The position numbers were made by a program, and so were the translations under genes. The notes under the pieces were generated by a model. That model saw nothing but the letters and a program-made list of their open reading frames with translations. It was not told the origin of the DNA and did not search any database. Of a stretch of 36,508 nt of DNA, positions 806 through 11,497 are shown piece after piece (within the stretch, counting starts at the first letter, position 1; each line of letters begins with the position of its first letter). This DNA comes from Archaeoglobales archaeon (lineage in GTDB: Archaea > Halobacteriota > Archaeoglobi > Archaeoglobales > Archaeoglobaceae): the NCBI GenBank assembly GCA_003662995.1, contig QMZC01000014.1:1-36508 (forward strand), in the 5' to 3' direction.

Positions 806-3800
806 ATGCGCATGAGATGCGTGCTAATCTGTTTTGTTTTCATTCTGCTAAATTTTATTGTTATTGCGCACGCTGGAGCTGATGACACGGCAATTAATAC
901 AAGCATAAATAACACAAGCAAGATTAACAACACTGTAAGTGGGGTTGTCAATGAAGCCAATGAAACTAATGAAACTAACGGGATCAATGAAACCAAAATC
1001 ATAACCCTGCAAAAAGATGTTTTCTTTCCGAAAGAAGTGGTTTTGATTGAAACAAACTTCAATCCGGAGAAAGCAGAATTACTGACTCCCATCTTATCGT
1101 ACAACTTGGATTTTGAAGAAATTGATGGTAAGTTCGTTGCTGAATATAATCTAACAAAAAAAATTGTTTTGGGAGAATATACGGTTGTTGTTGATGGCTT
1201 GACAAAGAAATTTGTGGTTGATTCGTATTCGATAGATGCATCTTACAACAACTCAACCATTGTTGGAGACGTAAAAACTTATTTCTCCCATCCAAAAACC
1301 CTGATTTTTGAGATATTCAGGAAAGACAACAAAGAAAAAGACAGGATAGTTAAGGACTGTGTGGATATCGAAAACAATAGCTTTGCAATCCCAATTACAA
1401 AACTGAAGCTTTCTCCGGGAAAATATATTATAACTTTAACTTGTGGAAACGCAAGAAAAGCACTGGAATTTGAGATTGAGGAGTTAAGTGTAAAAATCAT
1501 TTCGGAAGATGAGTACGATATTGGTGAGGAAGTAAGCGTTAAAATCTTGACTTTTCTGGGTGAAGAGTTGGTGAATGCTCAGGTAAACGTTAAAATTAAT
1601 GGAAGCGTTGCATATCCAATCAAAGTCAATAAAACTTACTACTTGAACTTCACAGCTTTAAAGGATGTAGAAATAAGTGTTAAGGCAAAATTTAATGGGG
1701 TTGAGGGAGATGCTACAAAGATTATTAGAGTTAGAAAGGTGTTTACGATAGATGCAAAGCCAATTGTTAAGGGTGACAATGTTAGCATTATTGGCAGCGT
1801 ACTTTTGAATGGCAAATTCACAAATGCAACGATTCGTTATGTGTTAAATGGGCAGGGAAGCGAAATAGCCACTAATGGCAAATTTAAAATCAACTTCACA
1901 AATCTGTGTCGTTCAAACTACACGTTAAATCTAACAGCTATTAAAAAGGTTGGAAGTGTAACACTGAAGGCATTCAAGCAACTTAATTTCACAACACTAA
2001 ACCTAACAAAGTTCAACAAAACAAGCAAACCTGAGATAATTAAATCTGAAATAATCGAAACAATCAAATTAAAAGCTGTTTACTTCCCGGGAGAGGTTGT
2101 TAGAATTAATCTTAAGTATATTCCGTCTGAATTAACCATAACTGATCCAGAGGGTGTGAAACACATCCTCAATCTAACAAAAACTCAAACGGGTTTTGTG
2201 GCTGAGTATCCATTGCTCAAAGGAGTTATACTGGGCGAATACGTATTAACCGTGGACGGATACCAAACAAAGTTCTATGTTGATACTTACACGATCAAAG
2301 CTGAGTACAAAGACTGGGTTATTGAGGGAAGAATTAAAAGCTACTTTACAAAGCCAAACTACGTTGAGTTTGTTTTAAGCAATGAAAGCATGGAGATTGA
2401 AGGTAATGCAACAATAACAAATGGAAAATTCACAATCCCCGTCAATTTGACTGGAAATTGTACTGCAATTTTGGAATGTGGAAATGCAAAACTTGAGTTG
2501 AAGTTTAAGAAGGAATTTAGAGTTATAGGCAAAATCGTAGCTTATGATGCAATTAATAAGTCAATAGTTGTGAAGTACAAGTTCAAAAAAGGTATGGCAA
2601 ACCTTGAAGATTTAAAAGTAAGTTTGTTCGTTGAATCATATAAATCTAAACTAAAGAAAATTGGAAGTTTTGGTGATTATAATTTTATAGAAATTAGAAT
2701 TCCAGCTTCAAAAGACATTATTGAGAAATTTGGATTTCCTTTAGATGTTTTAAACACAAAAACGACGGTTAAAAAGCTTAGGAACGATTTAATCAGACTA
2801 GAGCTAAACAACAAACTCAATGTCTGGTATCGTTTTAGTGTGAAAATACCTGAAGGATATAAAGTTAAGGAAATAGTTGGGGATGATTGTAGAAAAATTG
2901 TGAATTCAATCCATCTTAACAGGACTACAGGCGAAATTGAAGGAGAGTTAAGGTGGTATGTTGAAGATAACACTTTATATTTTTACGACGATCCAATATG
3001 GGGTTACAACATCACTCTTCAGCCCCCACAACCCAATAGATCCATCGCAATCGAACTTGCTTACTCTGGAGCTTACTCTGGAAGTGGTCAAATTTCAGCT
3101 ATTGTTTTTCCCTACTCTCAAGACGATGATGATGCAACAATTACAATCCACGATCACGCTGGCAGAACAGAAGATAACGATTATGGAAACGATATCGACA
3201 TAGACGCTGGATCTAAAATAGCAATCAGATACAGCAACAGACAATATGGCAATCCTTATTCTGCAGGATCTCTCGGAAATGGCAACATCAACCATATAAA
3301 TAGAACGGATGTACAGCTTAACAACGTACCTAACGGGGAGCTTGAAAGTGTAATCATTACTAAAATGCAGACACCTCTATGGGGACAGAGGCAGGTAAAC
3401 ATAACCCAGAAAGTGATAATCAGAAATAACAACAGATGGTTTGCGACCGTTTACTACATAGAAAACGTTGGAAGTCAAACTCTTACCAATCTAAGATTTT
3501 TCCAAGGAATGGATTGGAACTTTCGAGGAAGCTTTACTAACGATAACTCGTATTACGATTCCAACACCGATATTGTCTATGGATATGATGTCAATGCACC
3601 ACCAAGCGATATCCAATACGGTGGTTTCGGCTCTGTATATCAGAGTTCCCAGCACGATGTTGGATATTACTATACGATCTGGCAAAGGATCGCTTCAAAT
3701 TCACTTACCAACTCAAACAGCTATAGTGGGGATGCAGGAACTGCCCTTGCATGGGATAAAACTACATTAAATCCTAGAGAAAAATGGGTAATCCCAATTA

Positions 3801-6800
3801 TATGGGCTCTTGGGTTTGATTTCAATGACATGGTAAGTAACATAAATGCAGGAAAATCAGAACTATACGACGCTGGCATACTCTCAATCGACTCACCAGA
3901 AAACAATTCAAACTACAATCCAGCAACTGCAGGAGTTGTGTACTTCAATGCCACAGTTGCACTGTTTGGAATTGTTGATCTTGATAATCTTCAGGTAATA
4001 TTCAACGTGACCAAAGAAGGTGGGGGGTACAGCTATCAGAATTCGACCACAGTCAACCTTTCCATCCCATATTCAGAAACTGTAAAGGTGTCTTTTCCGC
4101 TCAACCTCTCAACACTTAGCTATGGAAAGTACAAAGTCAGTTTTAGAACTAATTTGTCCAACGATCAAAATACATCAAACGATGAGGCATGGATATACAT
4201 CAACATAGTTTCTTTCACAGTTGAGCCGGATCAGTCTGCTACATCAAATCCAGGAAGTGAAGTTTTTTATAATCTTTCTGCCCAAAACTATGGTTCTTCT
4301 GGAAGATTTGACGTTAATATTACTCAATCAACCAAAGGCTGGACCACAAGGCTTTATGAAAGTGGCTTGATTATTGCTGAAGATACTGATGGTGATGGAA
4401 CTTGGGATTACATAAATTCGAGTTACGACACAAACTCAAATAACCTACCCGATATATTCATTCCATACGGCAGTAGCAATATAACCATTTCAAAGGTAAT
4501 ACCCTCTTCAGCATTACTGGGTGAGACGGATTTTACAACACTTGATTTTGTAAATGTATCGATACATGATGATGTTACGTTAACAACAAAAACACCTGAA
4601 CCCCCTACGGTTCAGAAGACGTTTTACCTGCATAATACACTCACACTAAATACGACCAAGCCAAATTTGGTAAGTAGTTATACCCAAATCTCTCCAAATT
4701 CGTTACAATCATGGCAGCAAATCCCAAAGTTTGCCGATGACTTTAATGTGGTTGGGGAAATTAGGATCCCCCTCTGGTTATCTTCTTCTACCTCCGCAAC
4801 CCACACAGTCGCAGTCTCTCTACTTTATACAAACGGATTAACCTCTTATGTTTTGGGCAGCCAGACAAAAATATTAAGTCTAACAACGATTCCCACCCTC
4901 GAAACGTTCAATATTACACTGTCTTCCCAGCAAACAATTCCAAGAGATAATTACTTCATTTTGAGAATTGAAAATTCCAAAACTACTGCAACATTAAATG
5001 TTTACCATGATTTTACCCATCCATCAAGAATAATCACAAACACCACAACTTACATAAGGGTTTTAAGTGTGGATGAGAACGTTGTGGAATCCAATGCCAC
5101 AATTATAGCAAATATTACAGATCCAATAGGTTCATACGATATAGTAGAGGCAAAACTAACAGTATATTACCCGAATGGAACGCTCTATATAGACAATGCC
5201 ACAATGAACCTTGTTTCGACTGATTCAAACACTCCTTCCTTATGGAAAATTTACAATTACTCCTTTTATCTTCCAGTCGCAGGAGAATACAATGGAATAG
5301 TTTATGGAATAGAATCAAACGGTGTTAAGTCGAACCTAACGTTTACGGTTACACTTGGCAAAACAATTGTGGGCAGGGTGCTTGAAGATGCATCCCCACT
5401 TGGAATAAACTACAACGAGGATGTTGGAATAAAAAACGTTACAGTTGCTTTGCTCAAAGATGATGGAGATGGAGTTTTAGACTTTGATGATAAAATTGTT
5501 GGATTGAATAAAACAAACGAAAGTGGTTATTACTCTTTTGAGATTGCAAATACCACATCAGTTTACTTTATAGCTGTAGATTCAAAAACTGTTAACACAA
5601 CCCGTGGTTTAAACGCTAACTACAACAGCGGTCATATTTGGGCTGAGCAAACGTATCAAACAGAGTGGAGTGGCAGTGGTTGGGCTGTTGTTAAAAAGTT
5701 TGGAGGACAAGAAGCTACGAAAAGCGATGTATTTGGAGTGGACTTTGAGCATTACATAAAGTTGAATTTAACCAATTATAATGGAGAAAACTTGGACTTT
5801 GGATTCAGCTTTGATGTAATTGTGAATGTAAAAGATGTTAAAGAGAATTTAAAAGCAGTAGGAGAGGTTTTTATTATAAATGCCAGCAGCTCGTGGAAAA
5901 AAGTTTATCTTAGGAATTACTACGAAAATCCTGTCATCGTTTGTACCTACAATTTACCAAGTAGCTCTAATCCGCCAGCGGTGATTAGGATAAAAGATGT
6001 TAATAGTTACAGTTTCGAAATAAAAATACAAAATCCTGGGGACACAACCACTCCAACTTCGTCAGATATTCATTGCATTGTGATGGAAGAAGGAAACTGG
6101 ACGCTATCGGATGGAAGGAAAGTTGAAGCTCATAGAGTTTTGAGCGATGGAACGAATGAGAACAACAACTGGGCTTCAAGTTTGATGGAACAGATAGCCT
6201 ACAACTGGAGCTATACAAACCCAGTCGTTTTAGGGCAGGTTATGAGCTACAACGACTCTAATTGGTCTGTTTTCTGGGCGAGCGATGGAAATAGGCTAAA
6301 TCCACCAGATTCAACAAATTTGTATGTTGGTAAACATGTTGGTGAGGATACAGACACGACAAGAAATCCAGAAATTCTTGGTGTAATAATTGTGGAAGCT
6401 GGGAGCGGTGTGGTAAATGGTATAAAATACGAAGCGTTGCTTGGTTCAAATTCTATAAGAGGTGTGGGAAACAGTCCACCCTATAGCTACACTTTAAACG
6501 ATATGTACTCAATTGGAATAGCAACTCAGAATGCAATGAATGGTGGAAATGGAGGTTGGGCAATTCTTTATGGCTCAAATCCTGTAAGCAACACCATAAA
6601 CTTGGCAATCGATGAAGATACGATAAGAGACTCTGAAAGGAGACATATATCAGAACAGGTAGCTTATTGGGTATTCAACAAATCAGGCATATTAACAGCC
6701 AAAATTGATTCAAACAGATTTTGCCAGGGCTGTCTCAGGCAGTTCATTGTCAATTCAAATGCTATTAGCGGGAAGCAGAGAAGTTACTTTGTCATGCAAA

Positions 6801-8670: not shown

Positions 8671-10182
8671 ATGAGGTTGGTTGTGTTACTCGCTTTACTA
8701 ACTTGTATAACTACAATCTCAAGTGCAGAATGTATTAATGAATATAGATATGCTGTTTTTTATCCCAATGGGACGCAAGTTGTTTTTGAGGACTGGTTTG
8801 CTGGCAATCTAACCAACAATTACCCGCACCAAATTAATAGTATAAACGTTACGTACAGAGACGCAACTGCTTTCATTCCATCCATAAATCCAGGCGAGAG
8901 TAAGGGTTTTAGCAAAACTCTAAAACCTAAGAATTTTAATATAGGTGTTAAAATCTATGCGGAAGGTGACAGAAATGCCTTTTCAATTGTTTATGAGATT
9001 GAAAACTTCTACAACTTTACCGTTTCTATCAACATCTCAATTCCAAAGCCAGATTTTGCAACTTCTTGGGAAAATTGCAGTTTGATTGGAAAAAACTTGG
9101 TTTCAAATTTTTTTCTGCCTCCCAACACCAAATATTTCATCAGAATAAGAGGTTCGGGAAATTATGCAAAGGTTGACGATTCACTAATTGATTTCAGCAT
9201 TCCCTCAAAAGCCAACATAAGTTTTTCAGCTCCGACTGTATTTTCGATCACGAAGGAGTTGGACAATGGAACATGGTATGCAAACTATTCAATAAAAAAC
9301 AAGGCAGAATGTACTTTAAAAATCAACGGAACTACATGGGCTGAGACGGATACTAAGCATAACCTCTTCAATTTTTCCACAATCCTTAATCCAAATGAGA
9401 CGTGGAGTAAAAAAACAAAGTTTGAATCTGAAGTAGTTCCAACTTTCTACATCAAATACGTCGCATTGAATTACACTCAGTGTGATGTTGTTATAAAACC
9501 AGTTTACAAAGTTGGGAATAACTACGTAATTGGTATGGCTAAAGTGTTCGGCACAACATTCAACTTTGGAGCTGTTGCTGGAGGTGTTGGAGGGGTTGGA
9601 CATGGAATACTTGTAACACCCACACCAAAATCAACAAAACCGGCCCAACCGGTTCAACCAACTCAACCAACTCTAACCCCGCCAACCCAGCCAACAAAAC
9701 CAACACCAATACCCACACCACCTATGCCAATTCCAACTCCACCCATAATCATACCAACCAAAATCACCAAAGAGAAGGCAAAAACATACGTTGCATACAC
9801 GTTGCCTGTAGCGTATGCCACAGCAACCTCCCTTATAGTCTCTCCTGTGTTTAGAAGAAGAGGTTTTGTTGTTGACGGTAAATTTTTAGATGCTATTGGA
9901 GACAAAGCAATTCTTTTTAGCAGGTATGCGAGGAGAATGTATACGACATCATCAAATGCCAGACCTTTTGCATATGTTGTTGATTTAAACGTGGAGAGGG
10001 AAATGGTGGAATCCATAGCCATTAGAAACGGGTTGAGTGTTGAAGAAACTGAAAGCATAATCTTGGCTATACAAATGAAAAGACCCTTGTTTATAGCTGA
10101 TGAAAAAGCTGCTGAAGTTGCTAGAAGGTACGGTGTTTTGGCATATACAGTAGAAGATATTATTAAATACTCGTACGTTTAA
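8671..10182 (+). CDS. Surface protein with Pro/Thr linker, one TM segment and cytoplasmic PIN-like domain
   Basis: 503 residues. A signal peptide (about 1-19) is followed by an extracellular beta-rich region with many N-x-S/T sites (about 20-300) and a Gly-rich turn. A Pro/Thr/Gln linker (about 314-362) leads to a membrane segment (about 371-393) ending in FRRRG, which by the positive-inside rule puts the tail in the cytoplasm. The tail (about 398-503) looks like a PIN-type nuclease fold of the DUF3368 kind: an early FVVDGKF strand (Asp402), a GLSVEETES helix (Glu458/459/461), then a LFIADEKAAEVARRYGV-type strand-helix with Asp477. A PIN fold behind a receptor-like ectodomain is unusual. The membrane layout is clear; the PIN assignment is from pattern only and needs a structure-based search. 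Confidence 0.75.
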   Translation: MRLVVLLALLTCITTISSAECINEYRYAVFYPNGTQVVFEDWFAGNLTNNYPHQINSINVTYRDATAFIPSINPGESKGFSKTLKPKNFNIGVKIYAEGDRNAFSIVYEIENFYNFTVSINISIPKPDFATSWENCSLIGKNLVSNFFLPPNTKYFIRIRGSGNYAKVDDSLIDFSIPSKANISFSAPTVFSITKELDNGTWYANYSIKNKAECTLKINGTTWAETDTKHNLFNFSTILNPNETWSKKTKFESEVVPTFYIKYVALNYTQCDVVIKPVYKVGNNYVIGMAKVFGTTFNFGAVAGGVGGVGHGILVTPTPKSTKPAQPVQPTQPTLTPPTQPTKPTPIPTPPMPIPTPPIIIPTKITKEKAKTYVAYTLPVAYATATSLIVSPVFRRRGFVVDGKFLDAIGDKAILFSRYARRMYTTSSNARPFAYVVDLNVEREMVESIAIRNGLSVEETESIILAIQMKRPLFIADEKAAEVARRYGVLAYTVEDIIKYSYV

Positions 10183-10185
10183 CTG

Positions 10186-10740
10186 TTGATAGTGGACGAG
10201 CTGGAAGTTGCTTTGGATAGACTAATAAGAGATGCAAAAAGAAGGGATACCATAGCAGCTGTGTTAATCGCTACATCCTTTTTTATGTTTGGGATTGTGG
10301 CATTACTACTGTTAGACGTAATAGTTGTTCCCGATACGATAAAAGGTAGCTTAATTATGGCTATTTTGCTATTAATTTGGATTTTTATGGCAATTGGCAT
10401 TTACTTTTTAGTATCACAACCTTTACCAAAAACTTTCAGAATAGTGGCAGATTCAAGTGGTGTTGTTGGCGTTATAAACAATCGAAAATTTACAAATGAG
10501 AAAATTTACGTTCCAGAGTCGAGTTTTAGAAACTTACCACCTAACGTTGCAATTAAAGCTAATTTAGAGGTTGTTAGACCTCCCGAAAGTGAGGTTGCCA
10601 GATTCAGGGGAGTAGATAGGGAGCTTGCTGAAGCTTTAGCAGTAGCATCCATTTTGAAAGCAAAATATCTAATCACACAAAAGAAAATTGGTAATAAAGT
10701 TAATGGTGTAAAGATTGTAAATCCAAATAAAATTTTGTAA
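10186..10740 (+). CDS. Two-helix membrane protein with PIN-like cytoplasmic domain
   Basis: 184 residues from a TTG at 10186. A GTG at 10192 is an equally good start, and neither has a clear ribosome binding site. A short charged N-terminus precedes two membrane segments (about 24-45 and 52-75), so both ends should be cytoplasmic. The remaining 100 residues look PIN-like: IVADSSG with Asp89, KIYVPESSF with Glu111, GVDRELAEALAVA with Asp144 and Glu149, then AKYLITQKKI. In canonical PIN nucleases the last motif carries an acidic residue (LITDD); here it is Gln165, so activity may be reduced or lost. It begins 3 nt after the preceding gene, whose tail carries the same type of fold, so the two products probably act together. 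Confidence 0.7.
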   Translation: MIVDELEVALDRLIRDAKRRDTIAAVLIATSFFMFGIVALLLLDVIVVPDTIKGSLIMAILLLIWIFMAIGIYFLVSQPLPKTFRIVADSSGVVGVINNRKFTNEKIYVPESSFRNLPPNVAIKANLEVVRPPESEVARFRGVDRELAEALAVASILKAKYLITQKKIGNKVNGVKIVNPNKIL

Positions 10741-10747
10741 AATTAAC

Positions 10748-11497
10748 TTAAACCTCAACTACATCATCAACCTTAACCCTCCACAGCGAATTAATTATAC
10801 TTGCAAGTTTTGGATTCTTAAAACCCTTGATAAGCTTAAAATCCTTTGGATAACCTATAAATGGATCTATACAATCTTTATCCACGTCAGCAACCCATAT
10901 CTTGATGTTTGCAGCTTTAATTTTCTCAGAATGATTTTTGAAGAATTTTATAAATGGATTTGGATTTTTTTCTGTTAGTGTTACAATTACGTATTCTCCA
11001 TCATATTTTTTGTATTCTTTAGCAAATTCAATGTGTGATTGTATGTCTTCACCAACATCGTCGATTAGCGAATAGAAGACAGCATACTTGTGTTTGTTGT
11101 TTGAATACTCTTTTATGACTCCTTCTTTAACGGAATAACCGCTGAAAAAGTTGTTTATAATTTTATCAAGACCATCCGTTGCATCCAATAAACGTTTGGA
11201 GATTGTGTATTCATAATAAGCCTCCTCAAACTGCTCCCTCGTTGGTTTTGTTGTGTGGAGGTGGTAAAAACTTACACCTCCAATCTCAACCTTTTCGGAA
11301 AAATGAATACAGCTCAGCGATACGGGACACTCAATATAGCTATCAACGATCTCTTCAATTAAGTTGTAGTCCAGATTTAAAGCCTCAATCGATTTTGACT
11401 TAATAACTGCCCTAATAGCCCTTCTTTCAAGCTCTTCACGGGTTGTAACTTCTCTCTCCTTCAGCATTTCTGAGAGTGTTTTTATTATTTCGTTCAT
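10748..11497 (-). CDS. Conserved-looking soluble protein of unknown function (249 aa)
   Basis: A cytoplasmic protein without signal peptide or membrane segment. The N-terminal 50 residues are helical and charged. The middle (about 55-130) contains two Cys (IECPVSLSC) and a FYHLHTT motif. The C-terminal half alternates predicted strands and helices (YAVFYSLIDDVGEDIQSH, then GEYVIVTLTE, then IKIWVADVD), as in an alpha/beta or Rossmann-like fold. I do not recognise the family. It converges with the PIN-like membrane gene (stops 7 nt apart). Its start is supported by a TATATA box about 25 nt upstream, implying a leaderless single-gene transcript. Confidence 0.75.
   Translation of the reverse strand: MNEIIKTLSEMLKEREVTTREELERRAIRAVIKSKSIEALNLDYNLIEEIVDSYIECPVSLSCIHFSEKVEIGGVSFYHLHTTKPTREQFEEAYYEYTISKRLLDATDGLDKIINNFFSGYSVKEGVIKEYSNNKHKYAVFYSLIDDVGEDIQSHIEFAKEYKKYDGEYVIVTLTEKNPNPFIKFFKNHSEKIKAANIKIWVADVDKDCIDPFIGYPKDFKLIKGFKNPKLASIINSLWRVKVDDVVEV

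Follow-up and report, generated by a model that had tools for sequence, protein, structure and literature searches.

Two adjacent genes of an archaeal contig each encode a membrane protein whose C-terminal domain resembles the PIN fold of ribonucleases. Do they form an active membrane nuclease with an inactive regulatory partner, as the original prediction proposed, or does the pair use this fold in another way? We analyzed the locus within a window of 36,508 nucleotides, the whole stretch of DNA under study, from a member of the Archaeoglobales, and searched for relatives of both genes, hereafter A and B, in 57 genomes of the order.

8671–10182, + strand: gene A, the 503-aa partner (alignment A3, 16 sequences)
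10192–10740, + strand: gene B, the subject of this study, with a probable GTG start deduced from comparison with relatives

Conservation of the gene pair

The open reading frame at 10186–10740 on the forward strand encodes 184 aa if read from the TTG codon at 10186 to the stop at 10740. By comparison with other genomes it is a real gene, because 15 further genomes among the 57 have relatives with 35–46% identity. The frame and its length were correctly predicted; the start, originally placed 3 nt after A, probably lies elsewhere. The start methionine of the relatives aligns with the GTG codon at 10192, which is 9 nt past the stop codon of A, and for this reason we prefer it to TTG 10186. The corresponding residue M3 is nearly invariant in the alignment, and the match of the B profile to the window also begins at 10192. 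The protein would then have 182 aa; residue numbers below refer to the 184-aa frame. Used alone as a query against Pfam, NCBIfam and PDB sequences, B matched nothing relevant.

B is present in 16 of the 57 genomes. In each of these 16 loci the gene immediately upstream, in the same orientation, is A, with gaps between the two genes ranging from −26 to +47 nt. In the window the two genes share one reading frame. The expected conservation of the pair in relatives is thus borne out. A was detected in 17 of the 57 genomes; the additional match, in G024, is weak and covers the linker region only, where two stops break the frame, and it was not counted. Another genome retains a remnant of the B gene (G077:C1:30012-30277, E 4.3e-8) that is interrupted by a TAA codon, a sign of gene loss. 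Downstream of B, the window contains on the opposite strand (10748–11497) a gene with the DUF6846 and DUF6834_C domains, both well above the cut-off and of unknown function.

Domain architecture and fold

8728–9552, + strand: outer part of A (residues 20–294), a confident all-beta model whose fold resembles mu-homology domains
9571–9768, + strand: Pro/Thr-rich linker of A (residues 301–366), modelled with low confidence (pLDDT about 30–40)
9769–9840, + strand: probable membrane helix of A (residues 367–390) followed by RRR; a low-confidence model helix over an aligned hydrophobic stretch
9859–10179, + strand: C-terminal PIN-like domain of A (residues 397–503), predicted
10249–10416, + strand: two membrane helices of B (about residues 22–45 and 50–77), from the model and a hydropathy run
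10435–10737, + strand: C-terminal PIN-like domain of B (residues 84–184), predicted

The structural model of B, built from five sequences, is of middling confidence (pLDDT 73, pTM 0.48). It contains long helices at residues 2–45 and 50–77, connected by a loop of about five residues, and a small alpha/beta domain after them, in agreement with the predicted order of two membrane helices and a PIN-like domain. The hydropathy script fused the two helices of B into one run and left the helix of A below its threshold; the positions given here were taken from the models and from the alignments of relatives. The model of A has an overall pLDDT of 75, which rises to about 90 in the outer all-beta part.

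Foldseek alone gave a weak result for B, with a best E-value of 0.0056 and nothing at E ≤ 0.001. In a second look at the 1000 chains ranked by Foldseek, from which the best 50 rows were considered, residues 84–184 of B matched SSO1118 first (PDB 2mdt, a PilT N-terminus/PIN protein; Z 11.8, rmsd 2.4, 99 aligned residues). PAE2754, Nob1 and VapC proteins follow, and most of these 50 rows are PIN domains, either titled as such or known as PIN proteins, with exceptions such as RohQ. SSO1118 is also the best PIN row for residues 397–503 of A (Z 10.3, rmsd 2.9, 99 aligned). Both tails are thus predicted to adopt a PIN-like fold, on models of middling confidence.

The outer part of A resembles in fold the mu-homology domains of eukaryotic clathrin and COPI adaptors, which consist of two joined beta-sandwiches (Z 11.5, rmsd 3.0, 179 aligned, 8% identity); Foldseek ranks beta-sandwiches of the transglutaminase type equally. 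The resemblance may reflect a common arrangement or a distant relation.

Kinship of the two tails

Comparison of the whole A and B profiles by hhalign aligned residues 86–166 of B with 391–467 of A (probability 88, E 2.8e-6), and the tails alone matched each other with a probability of 94.6 (E 6.8e-8). Matched to 12 PIN proteins encoded in the same genome, the tails reached only E 0.0023 (B) and 0.018 (A); each tail thus resembles the other more than it does the ordinary PIN proteins of this genome. The 12 control proteins come from 20 loci; eight loci were dropped where the selected frame was a duplicate or not a PIN protein. These comparisons support the suggestion that the membrane carries two PIN-like domains related to each other. 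B probably arose by duplication of the tail of A in the Archaeoglobaceae lineage.

The PIN similarity is visible through structure models and profile–profile comparison, and weakly through a profile of ten A tails. This profile gave six matches, including the PIN entries 2lcq (E 0.026) and 2mdt (E 0.039), the latter aligned over residues 64–107. Its top row, a-iTHR-201 (E 0.0018), was not used, since no single stretch of it passes alone. The Pfam PIN model (PF01850) did not recognize a PIN family in ten tails at E-values up to 10. The genome of the window contains many VapC-type genes, seen as 30 matches to PF01850 at E ≤ 0.001; 29 of them exceed the cut-off, one only together with in-frame neighbours. 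The Pfam matches obtained for A, B and the tested neighbours include neither a TRAM domain nor an antitoxin partner.

Erosion of the PIN active site

10450–10452, + strand: Asp89 of B at the PIN motif-1 position (D in 16/16)
10531–10533, + strand: Asn116 of B at the motif-2 Glu position (K8 N5 R3; acidic in 0/16)
10621–10623, + strand: Glu146 of B, adjoining the motif-3 position (E15 D1)
10678–10680, + strand: Gln165 of B in LITQKK, at the motif-4 position (D6 S5 T2 E1 N1 Q1)

The canonical positions were located by aligning the profiles with PIN proteins from the same genome and, for A, also with Nob1. In the 12 control proteins the expected acids are nearly always present: the motif-1 Asp in 11/11 (one row is gapped), the motif-2 Glu in 11/12 and the motif-3 Asp in 12/12; the fourth position contains Asp in nine and Asn in three. 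Neither B nor A carries the four acids (D, E, D, D) of a PIN nuclease, and the alignments show that the catalytic set has eroded in both families.

In B, Gln165 aligns with the fourth acidic residue of the control proteins, as predicted; it is not the only missing acid, given that the motif-2 Glu is absent from all 16 sequences. The motif-4 position is acidic in 7/16, a count that rests on a one-residue gap placed by motif and not by MAFFT, and the motif-2 position was assigned by eye from the strand–helix pattern. Read across the alignment, this column drifts, and Gln165 is one of its states and not a dedicated inactivation.

In A, the motif-1 Asp is present in 3/16 proteins, the motif-3 position is acidic in 8/16 and the motif-4 pair in 8/16. 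The motif-2 stretch (residues 423–436) has no conserved acidic residue in the 16 proteins. The window's own A is the only protein with acids at all three remaining positions (D402, E459, D477), which is presumably what suggested an active enzyme; one of the three is acidic in eight proteins and none in three. Conserved instead are Glu461, Ser428 and an acidic residue at 442, each in 16/16. The proposed division into an active A and an inactive B does not hold for the family.

Selection and topology

Among five genomes of one genus (g5), dN/dS of the tails is 0.07–0.14 in the unsaturated pairs (4/10 for the A tail, 2/10 for the B tail), the ratio being saturated in most pairs (6/10 and 8/10, respectively). 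Where it can be measured, codon comparison indicates that both tails are under purifying selection; they are thus kept despite the loss of the catalytic set. In the same five genomes the B tail mostly has a lower dN (0.10–0.20) than the outer part of A (0.16–0.52).

All 13 N-glycosylation sequons of A fall within residues 33–267, and B has none. The net charge is positive in 32 of 32 tails, from +2 to +9 in B and from +1 to +7 in A. Together with the RRR motif after the helix of A, this distribution fits a location of both tails on the inner, cytosolic side of the membrane.

A patchy surface-protein cassette

86–805, + strand: f2, an about 239-aa type-I membrane protein with a signal-like N-terminus, an outer part and a C-terminal membrane helix
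806–8560, + strand: a 2584-aa secreted surface protein with a beta-helix region (Pfam Beta_helix, E 7e-7) and 92 N-glycosylation sequons

The pair belongs to a larger cassette. The f2 gene, whose type-I layout was derived from hydropathy (alignment A4, 15 sequences), occurs in precisely those 16 of 57 genomes that have B. It adjoins A in 14 of the 16 loci, overlapping it by 4 nt in 12 of these 14; in the window the two genes are separated by the 2584-aa protein, which has relatives in two further loci (L036 and L041). The giant surface protein family (f21) occurs in 3/16 loci of the order. A weak match of f2 to Ribophorin_I (E 0.008) is below the cut-off. Another surface protein, f3, is encoded in 14 of the 16 genomes with B. 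Broken pieces of f3 with several stops were seen in one more genome (G030:C65:3594-5087), which lacks A, B and f2 and appears to hold a decaying cassette. The distribution is patchy even within a genus: G001, the other genome of the window's genus, has none of A, B, f2 and f3. The contig of the window starts shortly ahead of f2, and A and f2 of G078 are partly on other contigs.

Outside the order, a sample of 392 genomes from the phylum yielded seven more f2 loci. Each of the seven has f3 and an A-like gene in its vicinity; B was detected in none of them (best E-value of the B profile 0.8). The A3 profile reached only one of the seven A-like genes at E ≤ 1e-4 in whole genomes, and the other six were recognized by local comparison. 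A PIN-like tail is present on A in four loci (L068, L070, L071 and L072). The A-like protein ends in a PKD-like domain, recognized by eye, in L066, and in a short tail after the helix in L067. The A-like gene of L069 is interrupted by a transposase-like frame (3396–4340), and the rest of A, at 2888–3214, has a short tail. Since B is missing from all seven of these cassettes and the PIN-like tail from three, neither seems essential to the core function. The cassette is rare in the family of G190 as well, where the A-like protein of L070 has matches in 7 of 100 genomes.

Proposed function and alternatives

We propose that a module at the cell surface of the Archaeoglobaceae, to which some other archaea in the phylum have related counterparts, may have A and B as its membrane core. 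Its members would be the f3 surface protein, f2, an optional giant surface protein, A and B. A would present a glycosylated beta-sandwich head outside the cell on a flexible stalk, cross the membrane and end inside in a degenerate PIN domain. B would place two helices in the membrane and, at its inner side as well, another pseudo-PIN domain related to that of A. PIN domains commonly bind each other, and those of A and B could form a putative contact of this kind. The paired tails would act as a non-catalytic clamp in the cytosol that couples or anchors the glycosylated surface complex and possibly reports its state to the cytosol. We give this transmembrane clamp an even chance of being correct. 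Some observations are odd for a purely structural role, namely Asp89 and the acidic residue at 146 of B, both kept in 16/16, and the three acids of the window's A. The positive charge of the tails could also mean binding of RNA or lipids.

The acidic residues are the starting point of two catalytic readings. That A is an active membrane PIN nuclease controlled by an inactive B would agree with D402, E459 and D477 in the window's A and with Gln165 in B; we consider it very unlikely, as 13 of 16 A proteins lack the motif-1 Asp, 11 of 16 have at most one acid of the three, the motif-2 stretch of A offers no conserved acid, and it is B, not A, that keeps motif 1 throughout. Alternatively, each protein could contribute part of one site, and RNA would be cut once the surface complex draws the two tails together. 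The invariant residues (Asp89 and acidic 146 in B, Glu461 and acidic 442 in A) could be read in this way, and a composite PIN formed by paralogous domains has a reported precedent in SMG5-SMG6 (PMC12923823). There, however, one partner retains all four canonical acids, which makes a composite site less likely here, where in none of the 16 pairs does either partner have a full site. Moreover, motif 2 of B is never acidic, motif 1 of A is present in three proteins and all three acids in one, and the motif-4 states of B, as tabulated, vary without an obvious matching change in A. We therefore regard a composite nuclease as rather unlikely.

The charge and the neighbourhood suggest a different use of the tails: as pseudo-PIN domains that bind RNA, they could keep mRNA, SRP RNA or ribosomes close to the membrane and so help to insert very long surface proteins. 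All 32 tails are net positive, the pair has giant glycosylated neighbours, and degenerate PIN proteins serving RNA complexes exist (Utp23). Positive charge at the inner face is nevertheless common among membrane proteins, the giant is encoded in few loci of the order and no RNA partner was found, and so we think this reading unlikely. A receptor-like complex, in which the head and its surface partners alter how the tails of A and B pair and thereby complete a composite RNA-cutting site or release an RNA or protein partner, would signal or be gated through the same pseudo-PIN pair and appears quite unlikely to us. Finally, Foldseek lists the MthK channel for B (E 0.036, 204 columns including the helices), which would make B a small two-helix channel or transporter that carries an RCK-like sensor domain. 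PIN matches nevertheless lead the ranking and fill most of its best 50 rows, none of which is titled RCK, and the five or so residues that connect the helices are too few to form a pore helix with a selectivity filter; that B is an RCK-gated channel is highly improbable. The non-catalytic clamp remains our preferred reading.

If it is correct, a conserved pseudo-PIN pair at the inner face of the membrane extends the use of the PIN fold to the architecture of the cell envelope or to sensing, and four otherwise unannotated gene families gain a common context. The loss of active-site residues seen in 16 relatives leads to a clear prediction: no nuclease activity, and direct pairing of the tails. 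Should the receptor-like reading be true, an RNA-type domain would form the inner half of a surface sensor.

Comparison with known systems

A search of the open PMC literature, which leaves most subscription papers outside, found no description of a membrane pseudo-PIN pair or of such a surface cassette. YacL-type proteins are membrane PIN-TRAM proteins, and 3ix7, a structure linked to YacL, appears in the structural ranking of B. They share with A and B a PIN-like domain behind membrane helices; in contrast to them, A and B have no TRAM match and belong to a two-gene surface cassette. SSO1118, the top structural match of the B tail and the best PIN row for the A tail, is a 119-residue chain without membrane helices or a cassette. 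VapC- and Nob1-type PIN ribonucleases resemble A and B in fold and motif order, whereas A and B lack the four-acid set, are predicted to be membrane-bound and have surface proteins as neighbours. A VapBC toxin–antitoxin identity, which implies a soluble PIN toxin beside a small antitoxin gene, was rejected, since both are predicted membrane proteins and f2 adjoins A in most loci. Degenerate PIN domains as such are already known, for example in SMG5 (PMC12923823). The SMG5-SMG6 system described there is similar in having two paralogous PIN domains, at least one of them degenerate, that are proposed to pair. It differs in being eukaryotic and in that one partner has a whole active site; pairing was shown for SMG5-SMG6 and is proposed here for A and B.
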